The notes below the pieces were generated by a model. The model was not told the DNA's origin, searched no databases, and saw nothing but the letters and a program-made list of their open reading frames with translations. From NCBI GenBank assembly GCA_034439735.1, contig JAWXAX010000125.1:1-60193 (forward strand): a DNA stretch of 60,193 bases. The letters run 5' to 3'. Each line of letters begins with the position of its first letter. Position 1 is the first letter of the stretch. Positions 29,039 through 55,026 of this stretch are shown here, piece by piece. The DNA is from Rhodothermales bacterium (GTDB lineage: Bacteria; Bacteroidota; Rhodothermia; Rhodothermales; JAHQVL01). The position numbers were made by a program, and so were the translations under genes.

Positions 29039-29085
29039 ATTTTGACCAGTAAAAATTACAGGTTGGAAATTAAAGTGAACGGTCG

Positions 29086-29892: not shown

Positions 29893-29930
29893 TGCAAAAG
29901 GCAAAACGCAAAATGCAAAAGGTAAAAAGG
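29893..29930 (-). repeat. TTTTGCA-type tandem leader before the isomerase
   Basis: On the coding strand the last 38 bases before the ATG at 29892 are built from CTTTTTACC, CTTTTGCA, TTTTGCG, TTTTGCC and TTTTGCA units. The array ends directly at the start codon, with no purine-rich ribosome site. The design matches the CTTTTCA arrays before the genes starting at 10904 and 26929. Confidence 0.6.
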
Positions 29931-31422: not shown

Positions 31423-31544
31423 GGTGCGCGGGAGAGTGGATAGAAAGCGGCTAATCTACAAGAATCGGCGCGAATATACGCAGGATTGCCAGATCTTCCG
31501 TACGTTCCGCTCTCGCCTTGCCCGAAACCTCATCGAAGAACCGC

Positions 31545-34500: not shown

Positions 34501-34598
34501 CAAGTAAAGAGATGCTGGGCCAGTCGCTCATGCCGGCGCTCGGCCGCTCGCTACGTCAGGAAGAACTGGTGGATCTGGTGGCATACCTGAAGGATTAG
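31545..34598 (+). CDS. PVC-type haem-binding lipoprotein: dehydrogenase-like propeller + HEAT + cytochrome c
   Basis: This 1017-residue protein is exported as a lipoprotein (lipobox ILIGC, Cys19). Residues about 40-450 form a sugar-dehydrogenase-like beta-propeller (DTDGDGAADLRKVF, DHGAHAFTFGPDGRLYF, NNYEVAVDAFGTLWQSDND). HEAT-type repeats fill 450-860 (SPQVRREAAIALRHND). A C-terminal cytochrome c domain has the haem motif Cys899-x2-Cys902-His903. The architecture is known from Planctomycetes and Verrucomicrobia as PVC-type haem proteins and suggests oxidation of a carbohydrate or alcohol with direct electron release. The stop codon lies in the first unit of a 15-bp tandem array. Start chosen at 31545; 31518 would place nine residues before the signal peptide. 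Confidence 0.87.
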   Translation: MRSAVIVSVIASGYILIGCQKPPVVNEYGLVPGVVGEALSPGQLREIEHALDGLEVAPGLEATLFAAEPMLANPTNIDIDARGRVWVTEGINYRPQLNPQNPVRGESERILILEDTDGDGAADLRKVFYEGTDINAALGIAVFGNRVFVSVSPNIFVFVDEDGDDVADRKEVLFTGIKGVQHDHGAHAFTFGPDGRLYFNFGNEGKQLLDADSVQVVDASGEEVKEDGQPYRQGMVFRMNPDGTDFEVLGHNFRNNYEVAVDAFGTLWQSDNDDDGNRATRINFVMEYGNYGFRDEMTGADWRQRRTGWEEEIPQRHWHLNDPGVVPNLLQTGAGSPTGIAIYEGRLLPEVYWDQMIHTDAGPNVVRSYPVSKTGAGYKAEIVNILKGTHDQWFRPSDVAVAPDGSLIVSDWYDPGVGGHHVGDLAQGRLYRIAPPRTPYTVPTHDLSLPETAVIALRSPNVATRYLAWTALNVMGATAETALDELLDDPNPRMQARALWLLGQIEGRGASTVEMALADENEDIRIAGLRLARQLDLDLIPYIQQGADDPSPQVRREAAIALRHNDSPEAPALWARLAAQHDGVDRWYLEALGIAADRQWDAFFAAWQEQNREDWDTPAGRDIVWRARAEAALPLLTELILSPTTTDTERLRYFRALDFHPASPAKAALLGGLLAADHPRELDIRVLSLQHLAGSDAMETPATRDAIYSTLDDVRGTRAFLDLVDRFELADQGEALFTMALADPAGDLGKDAGRILLDLDGRERIAAAVAAASTEESTAIISLLDGVESNGSRGTLESLFRDPSLPLEVRRRALEAFGPGWQGENRVLTLLKEGVMPEELSATASSILFASTDSRRRGQAEQYFEPPSGMTGEALPAIEALVTMQGNPKEGAVVFAQFCSTCHVVQGHGVDFGPALTEIGNKLTPEALYTAILYPDAGIGFGYEGYVLKLKDGSEAVGYILNQSGDEIRLREAGGRTNSYSVSDVASKEMLGQSLMPALGRSLRQEELVDLVAYLKD

Positions 34599-37121: not shown

Positions 37122-37298
37122 TCACATTGTACCACGGGGGAAGTGATGAATGGGTCTGGATCGAAATCCAAACCATCACCGCGTAATTCCAGTTCTCAGC
37201 CGGGGAATGCATGAGTGGCAGTGGAAATAGTGGCCGGCGACGCGTTATGTTGAGGTCAGTTTCTCATCAGGCAGTTGAAAACGTATCGGACGCGTCCC

Positions 37299-38219
37299 AT
37301 GAATCGTCGCACCTTTCTCGCCCAAACCACCGCTCTAGCCGCCCTCGCTCCGCTCATGCCCGTATCCACACATTCCATCAAGCCGTCTTTTTCGATCTCG
37401 CTGGCCGAATGGTCGCTCCATCGCACCCTCTTTTCGGGTGCGCTGCAGCCGTTGGACTTCCCCGTGGTGGCCAGGCGCACCTATGGCATCGACGCCGTTG
37501 AATACGTCAACCAGTTTTTCCTGGTGTCGGAGCTGTTTGTGGCCGAATTAAAACGGCGGGCCGACGGTGAGGGGGTAAAAAATCTGCTAATCATGGTGGA
37601 CGACGCCGGCCGGCTTGGCGATGCCAATCCAGCCCTCCGCCAGGACGCCATCAACCGACATCGGCCCTGGCTGGACATCGCCGCCGCGCTCGGCTGTCAC
37701 TCTATCCGCATCAACGCCCGCAGCGAGGGCTCGGCGGAGGAGCAGACGAAGTTGATGGCCGACGGCCTACAGCGTCTGGGCGATGAGGCCGCCACGCGAG
37801 GGCTCAACGTCATCGTCGAAAACCACGGCGGTTTCTCAAGCCAGGGCGCCTGGGTGGCCAATCTCATGCGAACGCTCAACCACGCCAACGTGGGCACCCT
37901 GCCCGATTTTGGCAACTGGTATCCGGCGGACGAATACGGCGGCCCGACGCCGGCGGGCAAGGCTGGCCCGTATTACGACCGGTACCAGGGGGTCGATGAG
38001 ACGATGCCTTTCGCCCGCGGACTCAGCGCCAAGTCGTACGCCTTCGACGCGCAGGGCAATGAAACCAGCACGGACTTTGGGCGCATGATGGCAATCGCCG
38101 TGAAACACGGATTTTCAGGCCACGTCGGGATCGAATACGAGGGATCGGCCCACAGCGAACACGACGGCATCCTGGCTACGAAACAGCTGCTGGAGGGCGT
38201 CAGGGCCTCGATGGGGTAA
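37299..38219 (+). CDS. Tat-exported sugar phosphate isomerase/epimerase-like protein
   Basis: The protein has 306 residues from the ATG at 37299, which begins a twin-arginine signal peptide ([18 protein letters not shown]). A TIM-barrel of the AP-endonuclease-2 family follows, with [32 protein letters not shown] and [16 protein letters not shown] holding likely metal ligands (Glu, Asp, His, Glu). Tat export means folding, probably with its metal, in the cytoplasm before release to the periplasm. It may process keto sugars there. The last 20 bases overlap the oppositely oriented DUF2256 gene. A perfect hairpin terminates transcription upstream; 177 bases between them hold nothing else clear. 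Confidence 0.85.
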
Positions 38220-40670: not shown

Positions 40671-40904
40671 GGGGGAGTGGAACGTGAATGTACAGGCGGT
40701 CCAATATATTGTGCCTGTTTATCTAATGCGATTCAATACGTCGATCAATCTCGACTGACCCTACGGAAACCATGCCCTTGCCGCGCAAAAATTCTGAAAT
40801 CCCCCTCGAAACTAAAGCAGACACGCTCCGTTTTTAGCCGCGCGCTCACCCAGTACGTTCCAACCCAAAAGCGGGGGAACGCCCCGCACGTCCTTGTCTG
40901 CCCG
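40671..40904. other. Divergent promoter region between xylB and the polyamine operon
   Basis: These 234 bases contain no gene and no strong hairpin. An A/T-rich patch (CAATATATTGTGCCTGTTTATC, about 40702-40723, given here in two parts of one stretch) is the best candidate for promoter elements. No repeat or operator palindrome was recognised. Confidence 0.4.
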
Positions 40905-41918
40905 ATGCACATTTCCATAGCCGATTTTCTGGAGCATCATTATCGCCACTTTAACGCCGCGGCGCTCGTCGATGCGGCGAAGGGGTATGTCGATCATATC
41001 GATAAAGGCGGAGCGATGATGGTTACCCTTGCCGGCGCGATGAGCACCGCCGAGATGGGCCTCTCGCTCGCCGAGATGATCCGGAAGGACCTCGTCCACC
41101 TCATCACCTGCACGGGCGCCAACCTCGAGGAGGACCTGTTCAACCTGGTCGCGCACGACTTCTACGTCCGTATCCCGAACTACCGCGACCTCACGCCGGC
41201 GGACGAGGAGAAGCTCCTCAGCCGGCACCTCAACCGCGTCACGGATACCTGCATCCCGGAAGAAGAGGCCATTCGCCGGCTTGAAAAAGCCGTGCTCAAG
41301 GAATGGCAGGACGCCGACCGCAGCGGCCAGCGCTACTTCCCGCACGAGTTCATGTACCGGGTCATCCGGAACGGCTCGCTCAAGCCGTATTACCAGATCG
41401 ACCCAGCCGACAGCTGGCTCGTGGCGGCGGCCGAGAAAAATCTTCCGATCATCGTGCCCGGTTGGGAGGATTCGACCCTCGGCAACATCTACGCGGCCCA
41501 CTGCATCCAGGGGGATGTCCGGAACGTGCACACGGTGCGGTCGGGAATCGAATACATGATGATGCTCGCCGGCATCTACGAGCAGGAGACCAGCAAACGC
41601 TCGATCGGCTTTTTCCAGATCGGCGGCGGCATTGCCGGCGACTTCCCGATCTGCGTCGTCCCGATGCTGCATCAGGACTTGCTCCGCACCGAGGTCCCGC
41701 TCTGGGGGTATTTCTGCCAGATCAGCGACTCCACCACCAGCTACGGTTCCTACTCGGGCGCCGTCCCGAACGAAAAGATCACCTGGGGGAAACTCAGCGC
41801 GGACACTCCGAAGTATGTGATCGAATCCGACGCGACGATCGTTGCGCCATTGATTTTTGCGTACGTCTTGGAGCGCTCGAAGGTGGCGGCGGCAGCCGGC
41901 GCGGCCGTATCGGCCTGA
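40905..41918 (+). CDS. Deoxyhypusine synthase-like protein (probable homospermidine or aminobutyl-transfer enzyme)
   Basis: This 337-residue protein matches the deoxyhypusine synthase fold: GAMMVTLAGAMSTAEMGLSLAEMIRKDLVHLI, TGANLEEDLFNLVA, GFFQIGGGIAGDFPI, DSTTSYGSYSGAVPNEKITWGKL and YVIESDATIVAPLIFAYV. The lysine that forms the enzyme-imine intermediate in eukaryotic DHS corresponds to Lys296 in TWGKL, and the NAD-binding segments look intact, so it is probably active. Bacteria lack eIF5A, the eukaryotic target; characterised bacterial relatives make sym-homospermidine from putrescine. It starts the operon whose next genes convert arginine to putrescine (speA, aguB, aguA), giving a direct substrate supply. 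The ATG at 40905 is the only start near the family N terminus. Confidence 0.88.
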   Translation: MHISIADFLEHHYRHFNAAALVDAAKGYVDHIDKGGAMMVTLAGAMSTAEMGLSLAEMIRKDLVHLITCTGANLEEDLFNLVAHDFYVRIPNYRDLTPADEEKLLSRHLNRVTDTCIPEEEAIRRLEKAVLKEWQDADRSGQRYFPHEFMYRVIRNGSLKPYYQIDPADSWLVAAAEKNLPIIVPGWEDSTLGNIYAAHCIQGDVRNVHTVRSGIEYMMMLAGIYEQETSKRSIGFFQIGGGIAGDFPICVVPMLHQDLLRTEVPLWGYFCQISDSTTSYGSYSGAVPNEKITWGKLSADTPKYVIESDATIVAPLIFAYVLERSKVAAAAGAAVSA

Positions 41919-41979
41919 ACGGTTGCGATCCCCACTGAACACCACACGATTCTCATCAGCCTTAGATTCAAAAACGATA

Positions 41980-43959
41980 TTGGGAAACAAAGCATCTGTT
42001 GATACCCTCGGCCAGGACGTCGTGGAGGAAGCCACCTGGACGCCGAAAGACGCCGAGGAGATGTATCACCTGAACTTCTGGTCGGACGACTTCTTTCACG
42101 TCAACGACAATGGAAGCGTCGGCGTGCGGCCCGTACAGGGCAGCAAGCAGTCGGTAGATCTCAAGAAGGTGGTCAAGGAACTGGAACGCCGGGGCACCCG
42201 CTTCCCGGTGGTCGTCCGGTTTCAGGACATCCTGCATGCGCGGGTGGTCCGGATCAACGAGGCGTTTATCGACGCCTGCAAGGAACTGGGCTACAAAAAC
42301 CGCTACAACTGCATCTATCCCATCAAGGTGAACCAGCTCCACGAGGTGGTGGAGGAGATCCTGGACGCCGGCAAACCCTACGGCCTCGGCCTCGAGTGCG
42401 GCTCTAAAGCCGAACTGGTCGCCGCGCTGGCGCACCTGGAGGACGACAAGACGCTGCTCATCTGCAATGGCTATAAGGATGATGTGATGCTACGCATGAT
42501 CCTCTCCGCGCAAAAGCTCGGCAAGCAGGTCATCCCCGTCATTGAGAAATACACCGAGTTCACGCGCCTCCTCAAGCTCGCCGAGGAAATGGGCCTGCGG
42601 CCGCGTATGGGCGTCCGCGTGCGGCTCTCCACGCCCGGCGTAGGCAAATGGGCGGAGTCCGGCGGCGAACGATCCAAGTTCGGCATCACCATCCCCGAGC
42701 TCGTCCGCGCCGTGGAAGAACTGAAGGGCCGCGGGCTCGCGGATTCTCTCCAGTTGCTCCATTTCCACCTCGGAAGCCAGCTCACGGACATCCAGACCCT
42801 CAAAAAGGCGATCAAGGAATTTACCCAGATCTACGTCCAGCTCTGGCAACGCGAAATCGAGGTGAAGTACCTGGACATCGGCGGCGGCCTGGGTGTCAAC
42901 TACGGCCTGGGGTACGGCACAACCACCGACAGCATCAACTATACCCTGATCGAATACGCGCGCAGCGCCGTGTATGCCGTTCAGGAAGTGTGCGATTCCA
43001 CCAATACCCCGCACCCGATCATTCTCTCCGAGAGCGGTCGCGCGCTGTCCGCGCACCATTCCGTCCTGGTTGTGGATATCCTCGGCTGTCATCGTAAGGA
43101 GGGCATGGACCCCGACTTCAAGCCGGGCAAAGGCGATCACGCCATCATCCGCGAGATGGACGAGATCTGGCGCATCGCATTGGCCGACAAGAAACAGCGC
43201 CTGCCGGTCCTGCTCGAAGCCTACCACGACGCCGTCGAGAAACGGCTCCAGTCCGAGTCCCTCTTCTCGTTTGGCTACCTGCCCATCGAGCAGAAGGCCA
43301 TCGCCGAAAAGCTGTACTGGAGCATCTGCTACACGATCAACGAAAAGGTGAAGCAGAGCAACGCGGAATGGCTGCCGGATGAACTGACGCATCTGGACGA
43401 TGTGTTGATCGACCAGTACCAGTGCGACTTTTCCGTTTTCCAGTCGATGCTCGACTACTGGGCCATCGGCCAGTGTTTCCCCGTGATGCCCATCCACCGG
43501 CTCGACGAGCGCCCGGACCGGCGCGCGATCCTCGTGGACCTCACGTGCGACTCCGACGGCAAAGTCTGCACCTTCATCTCCCCCTACGAAGACAAGGACT
43601 ATCTGGAGGTGCACGACCTCAAGAACGAGGAGGCCTACTACCTCGGCTTCTTTATGATGGGCGCCTACCAGGACATCATGGGAGACATGCACAACCTGTT
43701 CGGACGCGTCTCCGAGGTGCACGTCTACGCCAGCGAGGAAGAGCCCGAAGGATTTTATATCGAGAAAGTGATCCCGGGCGCAAGCGTCGAAGAGATGCTC
43801 GCCCAGGTGCAGTATTTCCCCAACGATCTGCTCCGGCGCATGAACAAGCTCGTGCGGGAGAAGGTGCAGTCCGGCGTCATCCAGCCCAGCGCCGGCTACG
43901 CGATGCTCGAGGAGTACGAGCAGATTATGAAGGAGACCACCTATTTCAGAAACACGTGA
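41980..43959 (+). CDS. speA: Biosynthetic arginine decarboxylase
   Basis: From a TTG at 41980 this is 659 residues, the length of E. coli SpeA (658). An ATG at 42061 would remove 27 poorly conserved residues. The PLP lysine is in NCIYPIKVNQ (Lys116 from the TTG). Other marks are GLECGSKAELVAAL, LHFHLGSQLTDI, LDIGGGLGVNYG, ILSESGRALSAHHSVLV and LDYWAIGQCFPVMPIHRLDE, followed by the C-terminal domain with GAYQDIMGDMHNLFG. It converts arginine to agmatine, the first step of the pathway completed by the next two genes. It lies 61 bases after the DHS-like gene. Confidence 0.95.
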   Translation: MGNKASVDTLGQDVVEEATWTPKDAEEMYHLNFWSDDFFHVNDNGSVGVRPVQGSKQSVDLKKVVKELERRGTRFPVVVRFQDILHARVVRINEAFIDACKELGYKNRYNCIYPIKVNQLHEVVEEILDAGKPYGLGLECGSKAELVAALAHLEDDKTLLICNGYKDDVMLRMILSAQKLGKQVIPVIEKYTEFTRLLKLAEEMGLRPRMGVRVRLSTPGVGKWAESGGERSKFGITIPELVRAVEELKGRGLADSLQLLHFHLGSQLTDIQTLKKAIKEFTQIYVQLWQREIEVKYLDIGGGLGVNYGLGYGTTTDSINYTLIEYARSAVYAVQEVCDSTNTPHPIILSESGRALSAHHSVLVVDILGCHRKEGMDPDFKPGKGDHAIIREMDEIWRIALADKKQRLPVLLEAYHDAVEKRLQSESLFSFGYLPIEQKAIAEKLYWSICYTINEKVKQSNAEWLPDELTHLDDVLIDQYQCDFSVFQSMLDYWAIGQCFPVMPIHRLDERPDRRAILVDLTCDSDGKVCTFISPYEDKDYLEVHDLKNEEAYYLGFFMMGAYQDIMGDMHNLFGRVSEVHVYASEEEPEGFYIEKVIPGASVEEMLAQVQYFPNDLLRRMNKLVREKVQSGVIQPSAGYAMLEEYEQIMKETTYFRNT

Positions 43960-43970
43960 TTGGAGGAGCG

Positions 43971-44864
43971 ATGGCCAACGAACAGGTCACCCTCGGCGTC
44001 GTCCAGATGCGATGCTCGGCGGACCCGGATGACAACCTGCGCCGCGCCCTTCAGATGAGCGGCGAGGCGGCGGATCGTGGCGCACAGATCGTCTGCCTGC
44101 CCGAGTTGTTTCGCAGCCGGTATTTCTGCCAGAACGAGGACTCGGCGCATTTTGCGCTCGCCGAACCCATCCCGGGCCCGTCGTCCGACGCCTTTGCGGC
44201 TCTGGCGAAGGAGAAGGGTGCGGTGATCGTCGCCAGCCTGTTCGAAAAACGGGCGGTGGGCCTGTACCACAACACCGCTGTCGTCGTCGATGACGACCGG
44301 GGCATGCTCGGCCGTTACCGAAAGATGCACATCCCGGATGATCCGCGGTACTACGAAAAATACTACTTCACGCCCGGCGACCTCGGGTTTCGGAGCTTCG
44401 AAACCTCGCGCGGCCCTATCGGCGTGCTCGTCTGCTGGGATCAATGGTACCCCGAAGCGGCCCGCCTCACGGCATTACACGGCGCCGAGATCCTGTTTTA
44501 CCCCACGGCCATTGGCTGGCACCCCGAGGAGAAATACTCTCACGGCGAAAAACAGCATGATGCCTGGGAGATCACCCAACGGGCCCACGCGATTGCCAAC
44601 GGGTGTTTCGTGGTGGCGGTCAACCGGACCGGCTTCGAGCCGGAGCCTGGCGCCGCGGCCGGCCAGGGCATCCAGTTCTGGGGGCAGAGCTTCGTCGCGG
44701 CGCCGGACGGCTCCATCCTCGCACGTGCTTCGCAAGACGATGAGGAGATCTTGATCGTGAACATCGACAAGCAAGCCATTTTTGATCAGCGTTCCGGCTG
44801 GCCGTTCCTACGCGACCGCCGGATCGACGCGTACGAAGCAATTACCCGGCGGTATATCGACTAG
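43971..44864 (+). CDS. aguB: N-carbamoylputrescine amidase
   Basis: This 297-residue nitrilase-family protein starts at ATG 43971 after a good ribosome site (TTGGAGGAGCG). The Glu-Lys-Cys triad is in CLPELFRSRYF, RYRKMHIPDDPRYYEKYYFTPG and GVLVCWDQWYPEAARL (Cys155). The HIPDDP-YYEKYYFTPGD segment is diagnostic for AguB. It hydrolyses N-carbamoylputrescine to putrescine, CO2 and ammonia. It sits 11 bases after speA and 7 bases before aguA. Confidence 0.95.
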   Translation: MANEQVTLGVVQMRCSADPDDNLRRALQMSGEAADRGAQIVCLPELFRSRYFCQNEDSAHFALAEPIPGPSSDAFAALAKEKGAVIVASLFEKRAVGLYHNTAVVVDDDRGMLGRYRKMHIPDDPRYYEKYYFTPGDLGFRSFETSRGPIGVLVCWDQWYPEAARLTALHGAEILFYPTAIGWHPEEKYSHGEKQHDAWEITQRAHAIANGCFVVAVNRTGFEPEPGAAAGQGIQFWGQSFVAAPDGSILARASQDDEEILIVNIDKQAIFDQRSGWPFLRDRRIDAYEAITRRYID

Positions 44865-44871
44865 CTTCGCC

Positions 44872-45903
44872 ATGGACATACTACCTTCGACGCTCACGCC
44901 CACACCCGACTCGCCCGCCGCGCTCGGTTACCACATGCCGGCCGAGTGGGCGCATCAACAAGGCGTCTGGATCTCGTGGCCTCACAACCCGGACACCTGG
45001 CCCGGCTTTTTGCCGCAGGTCGTGACGTTTTATGACGAACTCACCCGCGCCATCAGCGAGGTGGAAGAGGCCCATATCAACGTCACCGGGGACTCCATGC
45101 GGCACGACCTCGAACGCCGTTTCAAGGACGCCATTGCCCGTGGACGGGTCGTTTTACACGATTTTCCGACCGACGATGCCTGGTGCCGCGACCACGGCGC
45201 GACGATCGTCGCCGGCCCCCGCGGCCGCGCGGCCATTGACTGGCGCTATACGGCCTGGGGCGGCAAATACCCGCCGTACGACCAGGATGACCGTATCGCC
45301 GATCAGATGGCCACCTACCTCGGCCTCCCCATTTTTCGGCAGGAGGTGACCCTCGAAGGGGGCGCGCTCGAAATCAACAGCGAGGGGCTACTGCTCACCA
45401 CCGCCTCCTGCGTGCTGAATCCGAACCGCAACCCCGGCCTCACGATTCCCGCCGCCAATCAGCTGCTGGTGGATACCCTCGGCGCGCGGGACATCCTGTG
45501 GCTTGAAGGCGAGATCGCCGGCGACGACACGGATGGCCACATCGACAACCTGGCTCGCTTCGTGAACGACGACACAGTGTTTATCGAACCCCGCCTCGGT
45601 GAAGCCTCGCGCGCCATCCTGCGCGACTACCGCACCCCGATGGGCGGGGCACTCACGATCGTGGAACTCCCACTGCCCGAGCCGATCGAACGGGACGGGC
45701 AGTCCCTGCCGGCCAGCTACGCCAACTTCCTGATCATCAACGAATTGGTGCTGGTGCCCGGCTACGGCGAGCCCGAGGACGGAGTCGCCTGTGCCATGCT
45801 TCAGGAGCATTTCCCGACGCGCGACGTCGTAGCCATCGACGCCCGCGCCGCCATCGTCGGTCTCGGCGCCATCCACTGCCTCACGCAACAAGTGCCTGAA
45901 TAG
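44872..45903 (+). CDS. aguA: Agmatine deiminase
   Basis: The protein has 343 residues from the ATG at 44872. The guanidino-group-modifying fold shows MPAEWAHQQGVWISWPHN, DDAWCRDHGATIV, TLEGGALEINSEGLLLTT, GDDTDGHIDNLARFV and the catalytic Cys336 in GLGAIHCLTQQ. It converts agmatine to N-carbamoylputrescine, the substrate of AguB. Completing SpeA-AguA-AguB in one operon with a DHS-like gene gives an arginine-to-putrescine-to-higher-polyamine route. The length is slightly short at the C terminus compared with many relatives (about 350-370). Confidence 0.95.
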   Translation: MDILPSTLTPTPDSPAALGYHMPAEWAHQQGVWISWPHNPDTWPGFLPQVVTFYDELTRAISEVEEAHINVTGDSMRHDLERRFKDAIARGRVVLHDFPTDDAWCRDHGATIVAGPRGRAAIDWRYTAWGGKYPPYDQDDRIADQMATYLGLPIFRQEVTLEGGALEINSEGLLLTTASCVLNPNRNPGLTIPAANQLLVDTLGARDILWLEGEIAGDDTDGHIDNLARFVNDDTVFIEPRLGEASRAILRDYRTPMGGALTIVELPLPEPIERDGQSLPASYANFLIINELVLVPGYGEPEDGVACAMLQEHFPTRDVVAIDARAAIVGLGAIHCLTQQVPE

Positions 45904-46053: not shown

Positions 46054-47190
46054 ATGTCTCAATTTGCCCGCTTTATCTGGCTCTTTATCGTCGTTTCCAT
46101 CGCCGGCCTGACTTCGAGCGCCCAGCCAGCACCCGCCGGCGCCGCCGGCTACACGATCCAGCCCTTCGCCTCCGGCCTCGATAGCCCGTGGGGCATGGCG
46201 TTCCTGCCGGATGGCCGGCTGCTCGTGACCGAGCGTATCGGCACCTTACGCATCGTCGCCACCGACGGCACCGTCTCAGCGCCCGTCGAAGGCGTGCCGG
46301 AAGTCTGCGCCTGCGGCCAGGGCGGGTTGCTGGACGTTCAACTGCATCCGCACTATCAGCAGAATGGCTGGATCTACATCAGCTACTCCGACAAAAAGAT
46401 GAACGCGGCCGGCGAGGCCACGGGCTTCACGGCCCTCATGCGCGCCCGCCTCTCCGGGAACGCGCTGATTGACCAGCAGATGGTCTACACGGCGCCTGAA
46501 GACGTGTACAGCACGCGCGAGCACCATTTCGGCTCGCGGATCACGTTCGACGACGCTGGCTACCTCTTTTTCTCGATCGGCGACCGTGGCGTCATGGAAG
46601 ATGCCCAGCGGCTGGATGTCCCGAATGGCAAGATCCACCGCCTGCACGACGACGGGCGCGTGCCGGCCGACAATCCCTTTGTCGGCCAGGCCGGCGCCGT
46701 GGCGACGATCTGGTCGTACGGCCACCGTAACCCGCAGGGCTTGCAATGGAACGACGGCGCCCTCTGGAATACCGAACACGGTCCGCAGGGCGGCGACGAG
46801 CTGAACCTGGTGCGCAAAGGCCTCAACTTCGGCTGGCCGGCGATCACGTACGGCATCAACTACAACAACGAGATCATCAGCGAATTTACCGAAAAAGAGG
46901 GCATGGAGCAGCCGGCGACCCACTGGACGCCGTCGATCGCCACCTGCGGCATCGACTTCTACGACGGGGCCGCGTTTCCAGGTTGGAGCGGCGACCTGTT
47001 CGTGACGTCGCTCAAGTTCGGCGAACTCCACCGCGTTGAGATCGACGGCACAACCGTCGTCAATCGGGAAGTGGTGCTCAAAACCGACGGCCGGCTGCGC
47101 GACGTTGAAACGGGTCCCGATGGCTACCTTTACATTGCTATCGAGGGCATGCCGACGAGCATCGTCCGTCTCGTGCCGGCCGGGAGTTGA
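46054..47190 (+). CDS. PQQ-dependent sugar (aldose/glucose) dehydrogenase, soluble type
   Basis: This 378-residue secreted protein has a signal peptide (to about residue 23, SAQ). A six-bladed propeller of the YliI/Asd and GdhB family shows LDSPWGMAFLPDGRLLVTER, GQGGLLDVQLHPHY, HFGSRITFDDAGYLFFSIGD, SYGHRNPQGLQW, EHGPQGGDELN and FGWPAITYGINY. The His, Arg and Asp residues used for PQQ and substrate are recognisable in these segments. It oxidises aldose sugars in the periplasm and passes electrons to a carrier. It begins the run of exported oxidation proteins ending at 55026. Confidence 0.92.
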   Translation: MSQFARFIWLFIVVSIAGLTSSAQPAPAGAAGYTIQPFASGLDSPWGMAFLPDGRLLVTERIGTLRIVATDGTVSAPVEGVPEVCACGQGGLLDVQLHPHYQQNGWIYISYSDKKMNAAGEATGFTALMRARLSGNALIDQQMVYTAPEDVYSTREHHFGSRITFDDAGYLFFSIGDRGVMEDAQRLDVPNGKIHRLHDDGRVPADNPFVGQAGAVATIWSYGHRNPQGLQWNDGALWNTEHGPQGGDELNLVRKGLNFGWPAITYGINYNNEIISEFTEKEGMEQPATHWTPSIATCGIDFYDGAAFPGWSGDLFVTSLKFGELHRVEIDGTTVVNREVVLKTDGRLRDVETGPDGYLYIAIEGMPTSIVRLVPAGS

Positions 47191-47192
47191 TC

Positions 47193-47429
47193 ATGGGCGG
47201 ATGGCTGGATCGGATTCCCCTTACGCTGCTGATCGTGGGCGCCACGCTGATGGCGCTGGCGCCGTTTTATCCCGAGCCGCACCTGTGGCAGAAAGCCAGG
47301 ATGCTATTCGCGGGTGAACTGACGCGTCCGGAGGATATCTTCGATGTCCTCTTTCACAGCGCGCTCCTGATACTGGTGGGGATCAAGGTGAAACGCGACT
47401 ACTTCTCTTCCGAAGACGGGGTGGAGTGA
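47193..47429 (+). CDS. Small two-helix membrane protein
   Basis: The ATG at 47193 gives 78 residues; a TTG at 47187 overlaps the stop of the dehydrogenase gene. Two hydrophobic segments (IPLTLLIVGATLMALAPF and LFHSALLILVGIKV) flank the conserved-looking PEPHLWQKARMLFAGELTRPEDIFDV. Short proteins with this WLDRIPL...PEPHLWEK..MLF.G.L..P.DIFDL pattern are often annotated 'RND transporter' without support. No RND features are present. It could anchor or donate electrons to the upstream dehydrogenase, but this is only context. Confidence 0.75.
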   Translation: MGGWLDRIPLTLLIVGATLMALAPFYPEPHLWQKARMLFAGELTRPEDIFDVLFHSALLILVGIKVKRDYFSSEDGVE

Positions 47430-47466
47430 GCGGTTGAATCCGATGTCTCTTCATCGGCACCGAAGC

Positions 47467-47502
47467 GTCGGGGCCTACGTTTAAGCCAACGTAGGCCCCG
47501 AC
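47467..47502 (+). terminator. Perfect 15-bp hairpin after the small membrane protein
   Basis: GTCGGGGCCTACGTT (47467-47481) and AACGTAGGCCCCGAC (47488-47502) form a perfect stem with a six-base loop. There is no T run. It separates the dehydrogenase/membrane-protein pair from the DUF1080 gene. The rest of the 222-base gap holds nothing else recognisable. Confidence 0.65.
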
Positions 47503-47651
47503 CTCCACGCTCTCGGGTAGGCCTTCGGCGCGCGAGGTGCCGTGGTTGGTATCAGCCATTTCAACTGTGGGGAAGACGGCGTATCTTCCCATGCTACAAA
47601 ACCCCTTTTTGCGACGGGCACCCGTTAGGATTTGGCATCGCGCTTTATTTT

Positions 47652-49547
47652 ATGTTGATACCCACCGTAATCGCGCACGCGCGCCGCGCCGCGCTGATTG
47701 TACTTCTTGTTGTGCCACTGGCCCTGATGCTTGCCGGCTCAACGGCCGCAGCCCAGCAAGCCGCCACGCCGGCCACCCCCTTGTCGCTCGACGACCTGCG
47801 GAGCTTCAAGCCCACCGCCGGCAACTGGCAGATTGTCGGCGGGTTTACGGCGGATCGTAACGCCGATCAGGCCTTTACGACGACGCCTGGAACGGGTATC
47901 CTCGCCAATATCCAGACGGAGAGCGCCCGAGACAACCTGTTTACCACGTGGGAACACGCCGATATCGAACTGGATTTCGAGGTCATGATGCCCCGGGGCT
48001 CTAATTCGGGTGTTTATTTCCAGGGCCGCTACGAGATTCAGCTCTTCGATAGCTGGGGCGTCCCGGCGCCGAGTCCGGCTGATATCGGTGGCATCTATGA
48101 ACGGTGGGACGAAGCGCGTCCCGAGGGCCAGAAAGGCTACGAAGGCCATGCCCCCCCCGTCAACGTCGCCCGCGCGCCGGGGCTCTGGCAGCACCTGAAC
48201 ATCGTATTCCGGGCGCCGCGTTTTGATGCGGCCGGCCTGAAGACCCGTGACGCCGCCTTCGTGCGCGTCGCTCTGAACGGCGTCGTGCTCCACGAAAACG
48301 TCGAATTGGGCGGCCCCACCCGCGCCTCCGCCTGGGACGATGAGGCCCCGCGCGGTCCGCTCATGATCCAGGGAGACCATGGTCCTGTGGCGTTCCGCAA
48401 CATCGGCTACCGCCTGTACGGACCCGAGCAGGTGACCCTCTCGAACCTGCGGTATGGCTACTACCAGGGGGCGTTCGACTGGCAGATGCCCGATTTGGGC
48501 GATCTCACCCTGACGCATGAAGGGCCCACGCCGGCGATCGATGCCGGTCTCGCCGATACCGAAAAGCGCTTCGCCCTCCAGTTCACCGGCTCCCTGGACA
48601 TCCCGACGACGGGCGATTACGTCCTGGAGGTGGCGCACAGCGCCCGCGTCCGGCTGGATGTCGATGGGAAAACCGTCCTCACTGACCGCGACGACAATGT
48701 GGCTGCGCCGGGTGATTTCGCGCTTCGCACCACCCGCCTCCGGCTATCGAAAGGGGCCCACCCGTTTGCACTCACCTACGCCAGAGGCAACTGGCACGGC
48801 GACCCGACGGCCCTCGGCTTCTATATCGCAGGCCCGGGATTATTGCGAACGGAGCTCTCGGCGCCCGGCTCCTTACCGCTCGATGCCTTCGCGGCCTATG
48901 AGATCGCTCCGGCCGGCGAGGCCTCGATCCAGCGCAACTTCGTCATGCACCGAGGCGCCCCACGCACCCACGCGATGTCGGTCGGTGAACCCTCGGGCAT
49001 CCACTATGCCTTCGATACCGGAACGGGCGCCTTGTTGAGCCTGTGGAAAGGCCGATTCGTCAATGCCGCGACGATGTGGTATCAGCGCGGTGATCTGCAG
49101 AGCGCCATCCCACTCGGCAGCGTCCTCGAACTCAGCGGCTGGCCGACGGTGGCCGTCCTTTCCGACGACGCGGCGCCGTGGCCCGAAACGCCGGAGGGGT
49201 TTCGGTTCAAAGGGTACAGTCTGAATGAATTTGAGCGGCCTATCTTTGCCTACCAGGTGGGGGATACGGAGGTGCTGGATCAGCTGACGCCCGAAGGCGC
49301 CTACTTTTCGCGGCGCATCGCGTTGTCCGGATCGGCCCCGGCCGGCAAGGTGTGGCTGTTCATCGCCGAGGGTGACCGGATCGAGCTGATGCCCGACGGC
49401 GCCTACGCCGTGGACGACCACACCTATTTCATCGAAAACCTCCAGGGAGGGCTTGCCTTCGTGCGTAACGTCGGCGGGAAAAGCGAGCTGCTCATCAGCG
49501 TCGATGTCGCCGGCGGCGCTCTGGTCTCCTATGATATTGTCTGGTAG
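47652..49547 (+). CDS. Secreted DUF1080 (3-keto-disaccharide hydrolase-type) protein with PA14-like domain
   Basis: This 631-residue protein has a signal peptide cut near residue 33 (AAAQQ). Residues about 42-255 are a DUF1080 concanavalin-like domain: GNWQIVGGFTADRN, LFTTWEHADIELDFEVMMPRGSNSGVYFQGRYEIQLFDSWG, PGLWQHLNIVFRAPRF and RGPLMIQGDHGPVAFRNIGYR. A PA14/GLEYA-like carbohydrate-binding beta domain covers 280-400 (ALQFTGSLDIPTTGDYVLEV, VDGKTVLTDRD). The last 220 residues are beta-rich and unassigned. DUF1080 proteins are recently linked to cleavage of 3-keto-glycosides in Bacteroidota. Position 6 bases before the propeller-azurin gene indicates joint expression. Confidence 0.82.
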   Translation: MLIPTVIAHARRAALIVLLVVPLALMLAGSTAAAQQAATPATPLSLDDLRSFKPTAGNWQIVGGFTADRNADQAFTTTPGTGILANIQTESARDNLFTTWEHADIELDFEVMMPRGSNSGVYFQGRYEIQLFDSWGVPAPSPADIGGIYERWDEARPEGQKGYEGHAPPVNVARAPGLWQHLNIVFRAPRFDAAGLKTRDAAFVRVALNGVVLHENVELGGPTRASAWDDEAPRGPLMIQGDHGPVAFRNIGYRLYGPEQVTLSNLRYGYYQGAFDWQMPDLGDLTLTHEGPTPAIDAGLADTEKRFALQFTGSLDIPTTGDYVLEVAHSARVRLDVDGKTVLTDRDDNVAAPGDFALRTTRLRLSKGAHPFALTYARGNWHGDPTALGFYIAGPGLLRTELSAPGSLPLDAFAAYEIAPAGEASIQRNFVMHRGAPRTHAMSVGEPSGIHYAFDTGTGALLSLWKGRFVNAATMWYQRGDLQSAIPLGSVLELSGWPTVAVLSDDAAPWPETPEGFRFKGYSLNEFERPIFAYQVGDTEVLDQLTPEGAYFSRRIALSGSAPAGKVWLFIAEGDRIELMPDGAYAVDDHTYFIENLQGGLAFVRNVGGKSELLISVDVAGGALVSYDIVW

Positions 49548-49553
49548 ATCCGC

Positions 49554-51584
49554 ATGATAAAGCCTGTTACGCTACACGGCATCGCCGCACGACAGCCCAA
49601 GCCGCTCGCTCGAGTGGTTGGGATTACCGTCGCCGCCGCCCTGCTGGCTTCCTGCGCGGAGCCTCGCCCGATGGGGGACCCTCTGGACCACACCCCGGAG
49701 GAAGTGGGGTATTATTACCAGGTGGTCGATATCCCCATCCCCGAGGACATCATCCTTGAAGTGGGGGGCCTGGCGGTTCTGCCAGACGGACGGCCCGCCG
49801 TGGCGACACGTCACGGGGAGGTCTGGCTGGTTGACAACGCCTACGGTGAACGCCCCGAAGCGCCGGCCTTCACGCTCTTCGCGCGCGGCCTGCACGAACC
49901 CCTCGGGCTGCTGCGCCATGAAGGGTCGCTGTATACCGCCCAGCGCGGCGAATTGACGAAGATGACCGATACGGACGGCGACGGACGCGCGGAAAACTTC
50001 GAGACGGTCTACGCCTGGCCGCTGACCGGCAATTACCACGAGTATTCGTATGGTCCGTTATTGATGAACAACGGTAATTTCTTCGTCTCACTCAACCTCG
50101 GCTGGTTCGATCGAGGGGAGAGCCGGGCGAAGTGGCGGGGCTGGGCGCTCGAGATCACCCCGAAAGGGGAGATGACGCCGATGGCCGTCGGCTTCCGCTC
50201 GCCGGCCGGCATCGGGATCCTGGAAAACGGCGACATCTTTTATGGCGAAAACCAGGGAGATTGGATCGGCTCCGGGTGGATGACCCACATCGAAACGGGC
50301 GATTTCCTGGGGCATCCCGGTGGATTGAACTGGACGAGTGAGCCGGAGTGGACCCATTTCCAGCTGGCGTACGACGATATCCCCAACACCGGCGCTCCGA
50401 TGGCGGAGGCCGCGAAAACGATCGAGCCACTCAAACTGCCGGCCGTCTGGTTTCCGCACACCATCATGGGGATATCGACCTCCGCCATCATCCAGGACAT
50501 CACCGACGGCGGCTTCGGGCCGTACGCCGGCCAGGTATTCGTCGGGGACCAGGGCCACAGCAAGCTGATGCGGGTTTTTCTGGAACAGGTCAATGGCGAA
50601 TACCAGGGCGCCAACTTCCCGTTTTACGAAGGCTTCGCCTCGGGTATTTTGCGGACGGCGTGGGGGCTGGATCACTCCCTGTTTGTGGGCCAGACAAGCC
50701 GCGGATGGGATGCGACCGGCAAGGCGCCGTACGCGCTCCAGCGGCTCGTATGGACCGGCAATGTGCCTTTCGAGATGAAGGAAGTACGCGCCATGCCCGA
50801 TGGCTTCGAGATCGTCTTCACCCAGCCGGCCGACCCCGCCGCCGCGGGGGATCCCGCGATGTACACTGTACAGGGCTTTACGTACAAGTACCACAACACG
50901 TACGGCAGCCCGGCAGTCGATATTCAGACGCTGCCGGTTCGCCATGTCGAGGTCTCCGATAACGGCCTGAGGGCACGCCTCGTGGTGGATGGCTTGCGTG
51001 AAGGCTACATCCACGAGATCCGCCTCGGTGCGCTGCCGTCCCAGTCGGGCGCGCCGCTGCTGCACGACTTCGCCTATTACACCCTCAACGCGATCCCGGA
51101 TGGAGAGCGACTTACCGTGGCCGGCGCGCATGCCGCGGCGTCCGAGCCGGCGTCAGACGTCAGCGCTGGCCTGAAGCATAGGACACAGCCGCCGGCCAGC
51201 TGGAATTCTGGCCCCGAATTGACCCTCACCCTGGGCACGCTCCCGGGCCTGCGGTTCGACGAGGCGCAGTTCGAGGTGAAGGCCGGCGCCCGCGTGGCGC
51301 TCACGTTTAATAACAACGACGATATGCTCCACAATCTCGTCATCACCGCCCCCGACGAGGCGGACCACGTGGCCACGGAGGCGCTCAACCTCGGGCTGCG
51401 CGGGCAGGAGATGGGCTATGTGCCCGATGCCGGCGCCGTCCTGTTCTTTACAAGCCTTTTACAACCCGCCACCACCGAAACCATTTACTTCGAGGCGCCG
51501 TCGATCCCGGGCGACTACCCCTTTGTCTGCACCTTTCCCGGTCATGCCGCAACCATGCGGGGTATACTCCGCGTACGAGCCTGA
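49554..51584 (+). CDS. Lipoprotein: sugar-dehydrogenase-like propeller fused to azurin-like cupredoxin
   Basis: The protein has 676 residues with lipobox LLASC (Cys34). Residues about 60-440 form a PVC-type membrane-bound dehydrogenase propeller (VGGLAVLPDGRPAVATRHGEVWLVDN, RSPAGIGILENGDIFYGENQGDWIGSGW, GQVFVGDQGHSKLMRV). A short beta domain with a DPAAAGDPAMYTVQGF segment follows. The C-terminal 130 residues are a type-1 copper domain: His593 in NNDDMLHNLVI, Cys659 in FVCTFPGH, His664 and Met668. The C-x4-H-x3-M spacing is exactly that of azurin. A built-in blue-copper carrier suggests direct relay of electrons from the propeller active site. Confidence 0.85.
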   Translation: MIKPVTLHGIAARQPKPLARVVGITVAAALLASCAEPRPMGDPLDHTPEEVGYYYQVVDIPIPEDIILEVGGLAVLPDGRPAVATRHGEVWLVDNAYGERPEAPAFTLFARGLHEPLGLLRHEGSLYTAQRGELTKMTDTDGDGRAENFETVYAWPLTGNYHEYSYGPLLMNNGNFFVSLNLGWFDRGESRAKWRGWALEITPKGEMTPMAVGFRSPAGIGILENGDIFYGENQGDWIGSGWMTHIETGDFLGHPGGLNWTSEPEWTHFQLAYDDIPNTGAPMAEAAKTIEPLKLPAVWFPHTIMGISTSAIIQDITDGGFGPYAGQVFVGDQGHSKLMRVFLEQVNGEYQGANFPFYEGFASGILRTAWGLDHSLFVGQTSRGWDATGKAPYALQRLVWTGNVPFEMKEVRAMPDGFEIVFTQPADPAAAGDPAMYTVQGFTYKYHNTYGSPAVDIQTLPVRHVEVSDNGLRARLVVDGLREGYIHEIRLGALPSQSGAPLLHDFAYYTLNAIPDGERLTVAGAHAAASEPASDVSAGLKHRTQPPASWNSGPELTLTLGTLPGLRFDEAQFEVKAGARVALTFNNNDDMLHNLVITAPDEADHVATEALNLGLRGQEMGYVPDAGAVLFFTSLLQPATTETIYFEAPSIPGDYPFVCTFPGHAATMRGILRVRA

Positions 51585-51652
51585 CAGGAGCCCGTCATCC
51601 ACACGCTCCGCAGGACGACTCGCACTCCATTCCTCCACCGACTCCTTTCCCC

Positions 51653-52552
51653 ATGATGAAAAAGCACCTTCGCCGGCTACTGGCTCTCCTGACGCGCACG
51701 CCGAATCTTCGCCCCGCCGCCGTCCCGGCGCCCGTTGTCCGGAATCGCTTCTGGACGGGAATCGCCCTGACACTCCTTGCGACGAGCCTCCTGAGCGCAC
51801 CCGCCCTCGCCCAGCCTTCCAAAACTGAGATGGCGACGCACCTGAAAGCGATCGATCAGCTCACCACCGACGCCCTCGCCGCCAGCAAAAAGGCCGAGAC
51901 GGCCGCCTCCGTGGCCGAAGTGAAACGCGAGGCAGACATTGTATTCGCTTCGATCTGGGGCATCACCTCCGGCCTCGCCGACGGCGCACTGGGTGCTGAA
52001 AAGGTGCACGACTGGAAAAGCCGCTGGCAGTCCGATACGGATGACTTCGAACTCGAGACCCCCGAAAAATTCGGGGTGCTGCCGGCCGCCGTCACCGATC
52101 CGGCCCTGATGGGCATCGTCGGACGTGGACGCTACGTGCGAGACCTGATCAAGGTGGAAGCTGAAGCCGGCAAAGCCCACTTCCAGCACACGTTCGCCGC
52201 CCTCAATAATGTGATCGGGTGGCAACGGATGGATTATGCGCCGGCCCGCGGCGGCATGCCGCGTGTCGACCTCACCGCCCAGTGGGACGCGCCCTCCGAG
52301 TTCTGGCTCTCCTCAGCCGATACGGGCTGGATCTTCGACGCCTACTCCCAGGCGGTGAACATCCTCAAAACGTCGTATGGCGACGATATCGGCGCCGCCC
52401 GGAAGCACGCCGCCGGCATGACGCAGTTGCTCGAAAAAGTGCGCGCCGGCGTCGACGCCAATGGCAACAACACGGTCGAGCCCGCCATGATGGAAGGCGG
52501 CCTCGACACCGCGCTCCAGCATGCGCGTCTGGCCGGCATCAACCTGCCCTGA
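51653..52552 (+). CDS. Exported protein of unknown function
   Basis: The 299 residues have a long n-region and hydrophobic stretch (WTGIALTLLATSLLSAPALA) with a predicted cut before residue 54. The mature part is mostly helical, with SVAEVKREADIVFASIWGITSGLADG, GIVGRGRYVRDLIKVEAEAGKAHFQHTFAALNNVIGW and a C-terminal RAGVDANGNNTVEPAMMEGGLDTAL that resembles a degenerate calcium-binding loop. I cannot name the family. It sits between the propeller-azurin and ThuA-propeller genes, about 50-70 bases from each, so it is likely a partner protein in the same process. Confidence 0.75.
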   Translation: MMKKHLRRLLALLTRTPNLRPAAVPAPVVRNRFWTGIALTLLATSLLSAPALAQPSKTEMATHLKAIDQLTTDALAASKKAETAASVAEVKREADIVFASIWGITSGLADGALGAEKVHDWKSRWQSDTDDFELETPEKFGVLPAAVTDPALMGIVGRGRYVRDLIKVEAEAGKAHFQHTFAALNNVIGWQRMDYAPARGGMPRVDLTAQWDAPSEFWLSSADTGWIFDAYSQAVNILKTSYGDDIGAARKHAAGMTQLLEKVRAGVDANGNNTVEPAMMEGGLDTALQHARLAGINLP

Positions 52553-52605
52553 TCGCGCTACGTGAACTTCGCCTTCCTCTTTCCAGGCCCAGCTTTCCTA
52601 TTGCC

Positions 52606-55026
52606 ATGAACTCATTCCAGCGAATTTTTTTCATCCTCCTGATGCCGGCTATCCTCTTTGGCTGCTCCGGCGCCCGATCTACCGCCGTGGAGACGATGAA
52701 CGCCGCCGATCCTAACGCCATACGGGTGCTTATGATCACGGCGACCAACGGCTTCCGGCACGAGTCGATTGAAGCCTCGAAAACCGTCATGCAAGCGGCA
52801 AGCGATTCCACCGAGTTCGTCATCGACATGACGGAGAACGTGGAGGACCTCAACGACGCCAATCTCGCGAAATACGACGTCCTCTTTTTCGCCAACTCCA
52901 CCCTCCGCGTGGCCAATGACCTGACGGACTCGGAGCGTGTGACGGCGCGGGACCCGATGGTGGGCGACTGGGGCAACTACGACCTTTCCTACGAAACGAC
53001 GCAAGGCAAAGCCACCGGCAAACTCGCCATCTCCGGCGCACCCGGCTCGCTTACCGGATACATCAAAGTGGGTGATGCCCCGGCGCCGCTGACGGTTGTG
53101 ACGTTGGCCGGCCGTGCGCTCACGTTTTCGTGGATCGAAAACGACCTCGGCTCGGGCGCCGCGACCATCACGGCCACTACCCAGATCGATGGCGATGCGA
53201 TGAACGGCTCCGTCACCGTCGACGGCACCGACATCGTGCTCACGGGCACCCGCACGGGCCCTCCCCGCGATAGCTACGAAGGGACGCCGGTGAACCACGC
53301 GCAGCGGGCCGCCATCATGCGGTTCGTGCGTTCGGGCAAAGGCGTCGCCGTGGCACACGCCGGCCTCGATGCGTTTTATGGATGGAGCGAATACGAAGCA
53401 ATGGTCGGCGGCGGCCTCTTTAAGTCAAACCCGTGGACGCAAGAAGTCCGTGTAACCATCGAAGAGCCTACCAACCCGGCCGTGGCCCACTTCGGAGAAT
53501 CGTTCACCATCAATGACGAAATCTACGTCCTCAACAACAATCCCCGCTGGAACTCCCGCGTGTTGGCCTCACTGGACATGGCAAGTGTCGGGGTGACGGA
53601 AGAACCATCGGATCAGGAGCGCAACGACTACCCGATTTCCTGGATTCGGAAGTACGACGGCGGACGCGTGTTCGTCACCAAGCTGGGCCACTTTGCGGAG
53701 GTCTGGCAGAACCCGGCGTTTGTTACCCACGTCCTCCAGGGGATGCGCATGGCCGCCGGCCGCGTCGAAGCCGACTTCGGCGGACGGCGCGTAAAGGAAG
53801 TGATCGCCGCGGACGTCTGGCCGGATGACATCGCGGTCGATGATCGCGGTAACGTCTGGATTGCTGAATTACGCGGCAAGATCCACCGCTATGACGCCAC
53901 GACGAAGCAGACGCGCCTCCTCGCCGAAATCAAGACGACCGACCCGACGGGCATCGAACACGGGATCTATGGCATCGAGGTCGACCCAAACTTTTACGCC
54001 GGCGAGCCTTACGTCTACATCTTCTACGCGGAGCCCGAGACGTTTGTCAACACGCTGCTGCGGTACGAGTACCGGAACGACGCGATCGATTTTTCCACCG
54101 AGAAGATCATCCTCCGCGTCCCCACCGAGCCGCAGTGCTGCCACCAGGCTGGCGACCTCGAGTGGGGCGCCGACGGCACCCTCTTCATCTCCACCGGCGA
54201 TACCGGGTACTCCGGCACCCGGCCCGAATGGGAGATCAGCGAGGAGCGCGTAAAAGCGTTCGCCGAGAAGTACGACCTGAACGATACGCACTGGTCGCGC
54301 ATCGTGGACTCCGAGCATACCTCGCAGAACCTGACTGATCTCCGTGGCAAGGTGCTCCGCATCAACAAAGACGGTTCGATCCCGAAGGACAACCCGCTCT
54401 ACGGCCAGCCCGGCGTCCGCTGGGAGATCTTCGCCTACGGCCTGCGCAACCCGTACCGCATCAAGTGGGATCAGGAGACGGAATCCCTGTTTATCGGCGT
54501 GGTCGGCCCGGATGCGGTGTACGACTACGACGAGTACAACGTCGCACAGGGCGGAGAGAACTTCGGGTGGCCGCGCTCGATCGGCCGGCTGTTTTACAAT
54601 GAGTGGACTCCGGACATGATTCCGAACTTCAAGCCGCCGATCTGGGAGTACCGCTATGACCAGGGCGGCGCCCGCTCGGCTACGTTTGGACCGGTGTATC
54701 GCTTCAAAGGCGCCGGCGCATTCCCGGAGGCGTTTCAGAACAAGGGCTTCGTCTACGACTGGTCCCGCCGTTGGATCAAGTGGGGCGACATCGAGGAGGG
54801 CACCTATACCTCCGACGACGAGCGGATGGTAAAGAACACGCCGCTCCAGTACTCCACCCGCACCACGCGCCTGACGAACATCAAAACGTTCGATCAGCTC
54901 ACCATGAGCACGCCGATATCGATGGAAGTCGGTCCCGACGGATGCATCTACGTGGCGGAATACGACGGATTCTGGGATCCAGGCCCTAACGCACAGGTCA
55001 CCCGCTACTGCTGGGTGAACGACTGA
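52606..55026 (+). CDS. Lipoprotein: ThuA-like domain (interrupted) fused to PQQ-type sugar dehydrogenase propeller
   Basis: The protein has 806 residues with lipobox LFGC (Cys20). Residues about 40-400 are a ThuA/trehalose-utilisation-like domain: VLMITATNGFRHESI, YDVLFFANSTL, RSGKGVAVAHAGLDAFYGW, VTHVLQGMRMAAG. It is split by a beta-rich insertion at residues about 116-218 (VGDWGNYDLSYETTQGKATG, DGDAMNGSVTVDGTDIVLTG), which looks like a lipocalin-like module. Residues 400-806 form a glucose/sorbosone-dehydrogenase propeller (WPDDIAVDDRGNVWIAELRG, CCHQAGDLEWGADGTLFISTGD, AYGLRNPYRIKWD, GGARSATFGPVYRF). ThuA relatives act on 3-keto sugars or galactose-type sugars. Fusion to a propeller ties both steps to one lipoprotein. 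The frame upstream of 52606 is shadow. Confidence 0.87.
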   Translation: MNSFQRIFFILLMPAILFGCSGARSTAVETMNAADPNAIRVLMITATNGFRHESIEASKTVMQAASDSTEFVIDMTENVEDLNDANLAKYDVLFFANSTLRVANDLTDSERVTARDPMVGDWGNYDLSYETTQGKATGKLAISGAPGSLTGYIKVGDAPAPLTVVTLAGRALTFSWIENDLGSGAATITATTQIDGDAMNGSVTVDGTDIVLTGTRTGPPRDSYEGTPVNHAQRAAIMRFVRSGKGVAVAHAGLDAFYGWSEYEAMVGGGLFKSNPWTQEVRVTIEEPTNPAVAHFGESFTINDEIYVLNNNPRWNSRVLASLDMASVGVTEEPSDQERNDYPISWIRKYDGGRVFVTKLGHFAEVWQNPAFVTHVLQGMRMAAGRVEADFGGRRVKEVIAADVWPDDIAVDDRGNVWIAELRGKIHRYDATTKQTRLLAEIKTTDPTGIEHGIYGIEVDPNFYAGEPYVYIFYAEPETFVNTLLRYEYRNDAIDFSTEKIILRVPTEPQCCHQAGDLEWGADGTLFISTGDTGYSGTRPEWEISEERVKAFAEKYDLNDTHWSRIVDSEHTSQNLTDLRGKVLRINKDGSIPKDNPLYGQPGVRWEIFAYGLRNPYRIKWDQETESLFIGVVGPDAVYDYDEYNVAQGGENFGWPRSIGRLFYNEWTPDMIPNFKPPIWEYRYDQGGARSATFGPVYRFKGAGAFPEAFQNKGFVYDWSRRWIKWGDIEEGTYTSDDERMVKNTPLQYSTRTTRLTNIKTFDQLTMSTPISMEVGPDGCIYVAEYDGFWDPGPNAQVTRYCWVND

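Follow-up and report, generated by a model that had tools for sequence, protein, structure and literature searches.

A candidate extracytoplasmic oxidise-then-cleave sugar island assembled from separately inherited gene pairs in a Rhodothermales genome

The window analysed here, a 60,193-nucleotide stretch of a Rhodothermales bacterium genome (contig JAWXAX010000125.1), carries six genes (g1 to g6) on the + strand at 46054-55026, each encoding an exported or membrane protein as judged by reading-frame lists and profile scans (Pfam, NCBIfam), by which the other loci were also annotated. The six genes form separate units, namely pair A (g3-g4), pair B (g5-g6) and an independent dehydrogenase (g1). 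Together they may represent an extracytoplasmic oxidise-then-cleave sugar island, in which two modules with separate inheritance stand beside an independent sugar dehydrogenase, a reading given about even probability. It is held because pair A repeats the logic of LacABC and DUF1080 in Caulobacter with another oxidase, and because pair B joins DUF1080, ThuA and a propeller. In Caulobacter, DUF1080 proteins were genetically linked to periplasmic 3-keto-glycoside hydrolysis beside the LacABC lactose 3-dehydrogenase (PMC9007349). The strongest new evidence is the exchange of the electron carrier fused to g4, which points to a propeller that would yield electrons next to a keto-glycoside hydrolase.

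The initial annotation had described six same-strand genes for exported or membrane proteins here, and they are present, with the start of g6 corrected to ATG 52606 (a longer listed reading frame opens upstream, within g5). Signal sequences were read directly: g1 and g3 carry Sec-type signals, and g4 (LLASC) and g6 (LFGC) carry a lipobox cysteine. Pair A comprises the following two genes.

g3, 47652..49547, + strand: exported protein with DUF1080 (3-keto-disaccharide hydrolase family; 47826-48404), PA14 (48549-48806) and DUF6797 (49008-49280)
g4, 49554..51584, + strand: lipoprotein with a DUF7133-like propeller (~49731-51113) fused to an azurin-type cupredoxin (51249-51575)

The DUF1080 domain of g3 matched PF06439 with an E-value of 3.5e-24 (86.3 bits vs a cut-off of 26.8), and the DUF6797 match fell slightly under the cut-off. 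The DUF1080 core, NSGxYxQxxYExQLxDS and QGDHG, is kept in the orthologues, where E128, Q130, D133 and H243 are invariant. The g4 propeller matched DUF7133 weakly (19 bits vs a cut-off of 27) and stayed under the curated cut-off of TIGR02604 (20.2 vs 122.2 bits), and no HEAT match was found in g4. Its azurin-like domain has all four type-1 copper ligands (H593, C659, H664 and M668), which are invariant in the close orthologues (A2).

The two genes of pair A are inherited together. Among 40 relatives, a full-length g4 orthologue occurs in five further genomes, and g3 lies directly upstream in all of them. When 296 genomes drawn evenly from the phylum were searched at thresholds of E 1e-80 for g4 and 1e-60 for g3, each gene was found in 26 genomes; both were present in 25, one only in 2 and neither in 269 (Fisher 5e-34, a value that is not corrected for shared ancestry and is inflated by kinship). 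The pairs are spread over several families (f1, f15, f18, f22, f25, f30, f33, f38 and f48), and in 22 of the 25 genomes with both, g3 and g4 lie side by side, adjacency in relatives being read mostly from match coordinates rather than annotated records. In one relative (G005), a weak DUF6797 match, cytochrome c, PA14, propeller and DUF1080 occur in a single chain, that is, the parts of pair A reshuffled.

The carrier domain was typed on the portion past residue 530 in an alignment of 21 g4 orthologues. The C-terminus is an azurin in 16 of them (CTFPGHxxxM or a near variant) and a CxxCH cytochrome c, at the same place, in the remaining 5; none has neither. Pfam scans of 12 of the 21 orthologues concurred, with 9 copper-binding and 3 cytochrome c profiles. 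In a tree built from the propeller only, the cytochrome forms appear at two separate positions, and at least two carrier changes are required by well-supported branches. The trait that type-1 copper proteins and class I cytochromes c have in common is one-electron transfer. Because the exchanged carriers share it, the g4 propeller most likely hands electrons to its own C-terminal carrier. An extracytoplasmic redox function linked to DUF1080, as first proposed for this stretch, is supported by the conserved pair, its occurrence as one polypeptide in a relative, and the azurin or cytochrome c carrier.

Other genes were also observed around pair A in relatives. Exported TIM-barrel genes lie near it in G016, G026 and G035 and are similar to a TIM-barrel protein with a Tat-like signal encoded at 37275-38219 of the window. 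In a cluster of another genome (L021, G015:C35), the parts of the pairs are rearranged into ThuA, cytochrome c-DUF6797-propeller and DUF7133-HEAT-azurin genes; SGNH and TIM-barrel genes were also recognised there by eye.

Pair B comprises the following two genes.

g5, 51653..52552, + strand: exported protein, largely helical, that represents an undescribed family and has an EF-hand-like motif (DxNxN) close to its C-terminus
g6, 52606..55026, + strand: lipoprotein with a ThuA domain split by a beta-barrel-like insert (~52963-53259), followed by a propeller of the soluble glucose dehydrogenase (sGDH) type (53779-55023)

No Pfam, NCBIfam or usable Protein Data Bank fold match was found for g5, whose AlphaFold2 model has a moderate predicted confidence (pLDDT 69); the EF-hand reading is based on one motif and one insignificant match. 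In g6, the ThuA domain matched PF06283 (E 1.2e-44, 153.5 bits vs a cut-off of 33.4) and the propeller matched PF07995 (E 8.2e-35, 121 bits vs a cut-off of 25). The structures nearest to the g6 model (pLDDT 73) in Foldseek are pyrroloquinoline quinone (PQQ) sugar dehydrogenases (2ism, TMt 0.76), followed by a ThuA-like protein (4jqs, TMt 0.74) and AA12. The ThuA insert, present in one copy in g6, was counted by eye as two copies at L045 and L046 and as zero at L047.

Homologues of g5 occur at 7 loci in 6 other genomes among the relatives, and a g6 orthologue adjoins each. When 84,980 species genomes were scanned, 23 loci were obtained, most of them in Rhodothermales, with a few gammaproteobacterial loci and one Gemmatimonadetes record; in the 19 genomes followed up, a g6 orthologue adjoins g5 every time (converted coordinates). 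The pairing of g5 with g6, like that of g3 with g4, lies well beyond chance. The link to DUF1080 recurs here, since DUF1080 lies in the same open frame as the ThuA-propeller in 14 of these 19 genomes (G040 at C191, G041-G048, G052 and G055-G058). It is N-terminal in the fused orthologues and absent from g6 of the window. Some unfused cases have a separate DUF1080 gene within ~10 kb (G040 at C24, G050, and the contig of G051 bearing a g6 fragment), and the window likewise lacks the fusion: its DUF1080 is part of g3, two genes upstream of g5. In one family, the genes around pair B encode a creatininase-like protein, an SMP-30 lactonase, an MFS sugar transporter and an SSS symporter. At L045 (3177-4358) and L046 (4888-6042), a second GSDH-type gene was seen divergent from g5-g6, beside a gene that by eye resembles glucosamine-6-phosphate deaminase.

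Beyond the export signals, domains, copper ligands, gene pairing, carrier exchange and DUF1080-ThuA-propeller fusion present in the sequences, sugar oxidation by the exported propellers is plausible, and we infer that it occurs at C3 with 3-keto-glycosides as products. In the proposed mechanism, the g4 lipoprotein propeller would take electrons from a sugar or glycoside and pass them singly to its own azurin domain and onward to the respiratory chain, and g3 would cleave the resulting keto-glycoside by its DUF1080 domain, with PA14 probably binding the glycan. The ThuA domain and sGDH-type propeller of g6 would handle a similar class of keto-sugars, with a DUF1080 of their own in most relatives; in the window, g3 may supply that function. 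The g5 protein would be an obligate partner of g6, possibly in electron transfer or assembly, and g1 would act as a conventional PQQ aldose dehydrogenase, probably on PQQ from outside. Sugar genes neighbour the pairs elsewhere, including SMP-30 lactonase, MFS sugar transporter, SSS, exported TIM-barrel isomerase and AGE epimerase genes.

Some sGDH active-site residues are kept in g6 and, by motif, in g4. The alignment of g6 with g1 covers the entire g6 propeller (hhalign 98.7%), and H513, R614 and N615 of g6, the equivalents of the sGDH catalytic His and Arg-Asn, are invariant in 17 sequences. Two invariant cysteines directly precede this putative catalytic His (CCH, residues 511-513, window 54136-54144, in TEPQCCHQ); they could form a vicinal disulfide at the active site. 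In g4, the residues H162 and R215 do not vary among 21 sequences and lie in sGDH-like motifs.

Several results weigh against the oxidise-then-cleave reading. Equivalents of R406/R408, the arginines that bind the PQQ carboxylates, were not found in g6 by ungapped and profile alignments, nor in g4; in g6, the aligned stretch that precedes GPDG contains no conserved Arg, and the Lys equivalent is ambiguous. The match of g4 H162/R215 to sGDH is a motif reading by eye, made without a significant alignment, and the g4 propeller bears only a remote likeness to GSDH and DUF7133: when its profile was compared with those of g1, g6 and the window's DUF7133 gene, the alignments were only weak or partial. 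No PqqE match above the curated cut-off was found in the own genome (98% complete) or in 39 relatives. In no relative examined do pairs A and B adjoin each other. Four Gluconate_2-dh3 (LacC-type) genes, which could mark alternative sugar oxidases, lie elsewhere in the own genome, so that C3 oxidation need not be the work of the propellers. Missing PQQ contacts do not exclude PQQ, because CcSDH, an AA12 enzyme, lacks several of them and is still PQQ-dependent (PMC4133262). Among the propellers, the PQQ-type label is supported by sequence for g1 alone; PQQ use of the known type by g4 and g6 is not supported, given the absent arginine equivalents and the lack of a PqqE match above cut-off.

How the six genes belong together bears on the first alternative, in which three unrelated units have come to lie in the order g1-g6 by chance and the pairs serve different pathways. 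The features outside the two pairs are as follows.

g1, 46054..47190, + strand: Sec-exported PQQ-dependent aldose sugar dehydrogenase of the Asd/YliI type, six-bladed propeller
g2, 47193..47429, + strand: small membrane protein of 78 amino acids, without family
47467-47502, between g2 and g3: perfect inverted repeat of 15 bp with a 6-nt loop, a possible transcript boundary

The joint order of all six genes was met only in this stretch. In every relative examined, the two pairs are found either on separate contigs or at a great distance from each other; the latter applies to G045, whose chromosome contig carries both. A six-gene operon as a conserved unit is therefore rejected, and the single system put forward at first does not hold; the co-occurrence expected of it was found within g3-g4 and, at every locus checked, within g5-g6, but not for all six genes jointly. 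At least two transcription units are likely, with g1-g2 apart from g3 onward, because a gap of 222 bp with the 15-bp hairpin separates them; the hairpin has no T run, is not a canonical intrinsic terminator and was not listed by the terminator scan, and Rfam gave no match. Homologues of g2, which has no Pfam or NCBIfam match, occur in 11 of 40 genomes, the own included. At the two loci inspected (G008 and G031), no GSDH gene lies in the ~1.5 kb upstream, and the neighbours include an alpha/beta hydrolase-like gene and an FAD-type oxidase gene. From these two loci with short flanks, g2 is doubtful as a member of the system and probably an unrelated passenger.

The separation of the pairs, the absence of g2-g1 linkage at the two loci inspected and the hairpin all favour chance juxtaposition. 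Against it, DUF1080 is carried by or accompanies both pairs, g3 to g6 are closely packed (gaps of 6, 68 and 53 bp), and both pairs are present in 11 of the 19 genomes reached via g5, where g4 has a g3-like DUF1080 frame nearby by coordinates. We regard this explanation as rather unlikely, although it retains appreciable weight.

The chief rival holds that the island only cleaves keto-glycosides, while GMC-type LacABC-like dehydrogenases encoded elsewhere oxidise C3 and the propellers bind glycan or substrate. Besides the four LacC-type genes above cut-off in the own genome, at least one is present in 35 of 40 relatives, and LacABC with DUF1080 is the genetically supported arrangement in Caulobacter (PMC9007349). 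The LacC-type genes of the own genome are, however, all on other contigs and none is in the window, and an azurin or cytochrome c on the propeller of every one of the 21 g4 orthologues is hard to square with a mere binding domain. Oxidation by such enzymes elsewhere is accordingly judged improbable, at somewhere over one chance in five.

That the g4 and g6 propellers are hydrolases or lactonases of the SMP-30/DFPase-like kind, with the carrier serving another redox partner, is still less probable: a six-bladed propeller next to a sugar dehydrogenase can be a Ca-dependent lactonase, as for DrSOD of Deinococcus (PMC12362111), the PQQ carboxylate-binding arginines are missing and g6 has a weak SGL match, but PQQ sugar dehydrogenases are the nearest structures to the g6 model, the exchange of azurin and cytochrome c speaks against a lactonase, and several relatives have a separate SMP-30 lactonase gene beside pair B.

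By sequence, g1 is an ordinary PQQ aldose dehydrogenase. It matched GSDH (PF07995) with an E-value of 1.4e-123 (412.8 bits vs a cut-off of 25), its closest solved structures are the aldose sugar dehydrogenases 7cdy and 2g8s, and alignments to 5min, 7cdy and 2g8s showed that all six checked residues, the equivalents of sGDH H144, R228, N229, K377, R406 and R408, are kept. It probably depends on externally acquired PQQ, because a PqqE match above cut-off was found in none of the 40 genomes. The PqqC search gave no match in any control genome and hence has no bearing on PQQ synthesis. Asd of E. coli is known to rely on imported PQQ.

Within the oxidise-then-cleave reading, a more specific and tentative proposal is that the g4 propeller belongs to a new class of periplasmic glycoside dehydrogenases, far from GSDH, with an atypical or non-PQQ centre and a plug-in azurin or cytochrome c, coupled to DUF1080, and that the ThuA-propeller branch has in g5 a new partner of helical structure; we consider it possible though doubtful. 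Exported propellers with fused cytochrome c or azurin recur in the relatives searched, and no function for them was found in the literature, most subscription journals being outside that search. If the proposal is true, one branch of the large uncharacterised group of DUF7133-like propellers would gain a function, and a further kind of enzyme would stand beside the GMC and Gfo/Idh oxidases in oxidise-then-cleave breakage of glycosidic bonds. The DUF1080 pairing and a carrier exchanged at least twice make the role of the propeller assayable, as conversion of sugar to reduced azurin and a keto-glycoside that the neighbour cleaves.

Elsewhere in the window, a separate DUF7133 propeller gene with HEAT repeats and cytochrome c (31518-34598; TIGR02604, 329 bits, and TIGR02603) lies ~15 kb upstream of the island. 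Polyamine genes occupy 40900-45903, with a deoxyhypusine synthase-like frame (by eye), arginine decarboxylase, an N-carbamoylputrescine amidase-like gene and agmatine deiminase. On the - strand, SDR, Gfo/Idh oxidoreductase and xylose-isomerase-like TIM-barrel genes stand in a row (27108-29904) that resembles an operon for sugar or inositol catabolism. As a downstream route for the island these genes at 27.1-29.9 kb are not supported, and neither is the earlier idea that Gfo/Idh genes of the window finish the route: they are on the opposite strand, ~18 kb away, with polyamine genes between, and no linkage was seen.

Among known systems, LacABC with DUF1080 in Caulobacter crescentus is comparable in its periplasmic glycoside oxidation and in a proposed DUF1080-family hydrolase encoded nearby (PMC9007349). 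The oxidase there is LacABC, whereas here it would be a propeller whose azurin or cytochrome c is part of the same protein and has been exchanged in evolution. Pfam scans found no GMC gene in or near the island. LacABC is a GMC-type enzyme with separate subunits.

The 3-ketotrehalose hydrolase of the BT2157 type, named in the same study (PMC9007349), has the PF06439 domain in common with g3; in g3, PA14 and DUF6797 are added, and the partner gene encodes a propeller with an electron carrier. CcSDH of AA12 with its AA8 cytochrome b resembles g4 in the six-bladed propeller, the kept catalytic His, several missing PQQ contacts and a fused electron carrier; it is fungal, its cytochrome is of the b type and its PQQ dependence was measured (PMC4133262), and g4 is much more remote in sequence. 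In comparison with Asd and related structures (2g8s, 7cdy, 2ism), g1 keeps every checked PQQ and active-site residue, and g6 has the propeller fold by model and keeps the His and Arg-Asn, but it has no R406/R408 pair, bears a ThuA domain in addition and shows an invariant CCH at the active-site His. The heme-binding propellers of the PVC type (TIGR02604, DUF7133) are likewise exported multidomain proteins in which a propeller is combined with cytochrome c or azurin, and g4 matches their profiles weakly; it differs from them in falling below both curated cut-offs, in having no HEAT match and in its coupling to DUF1080.

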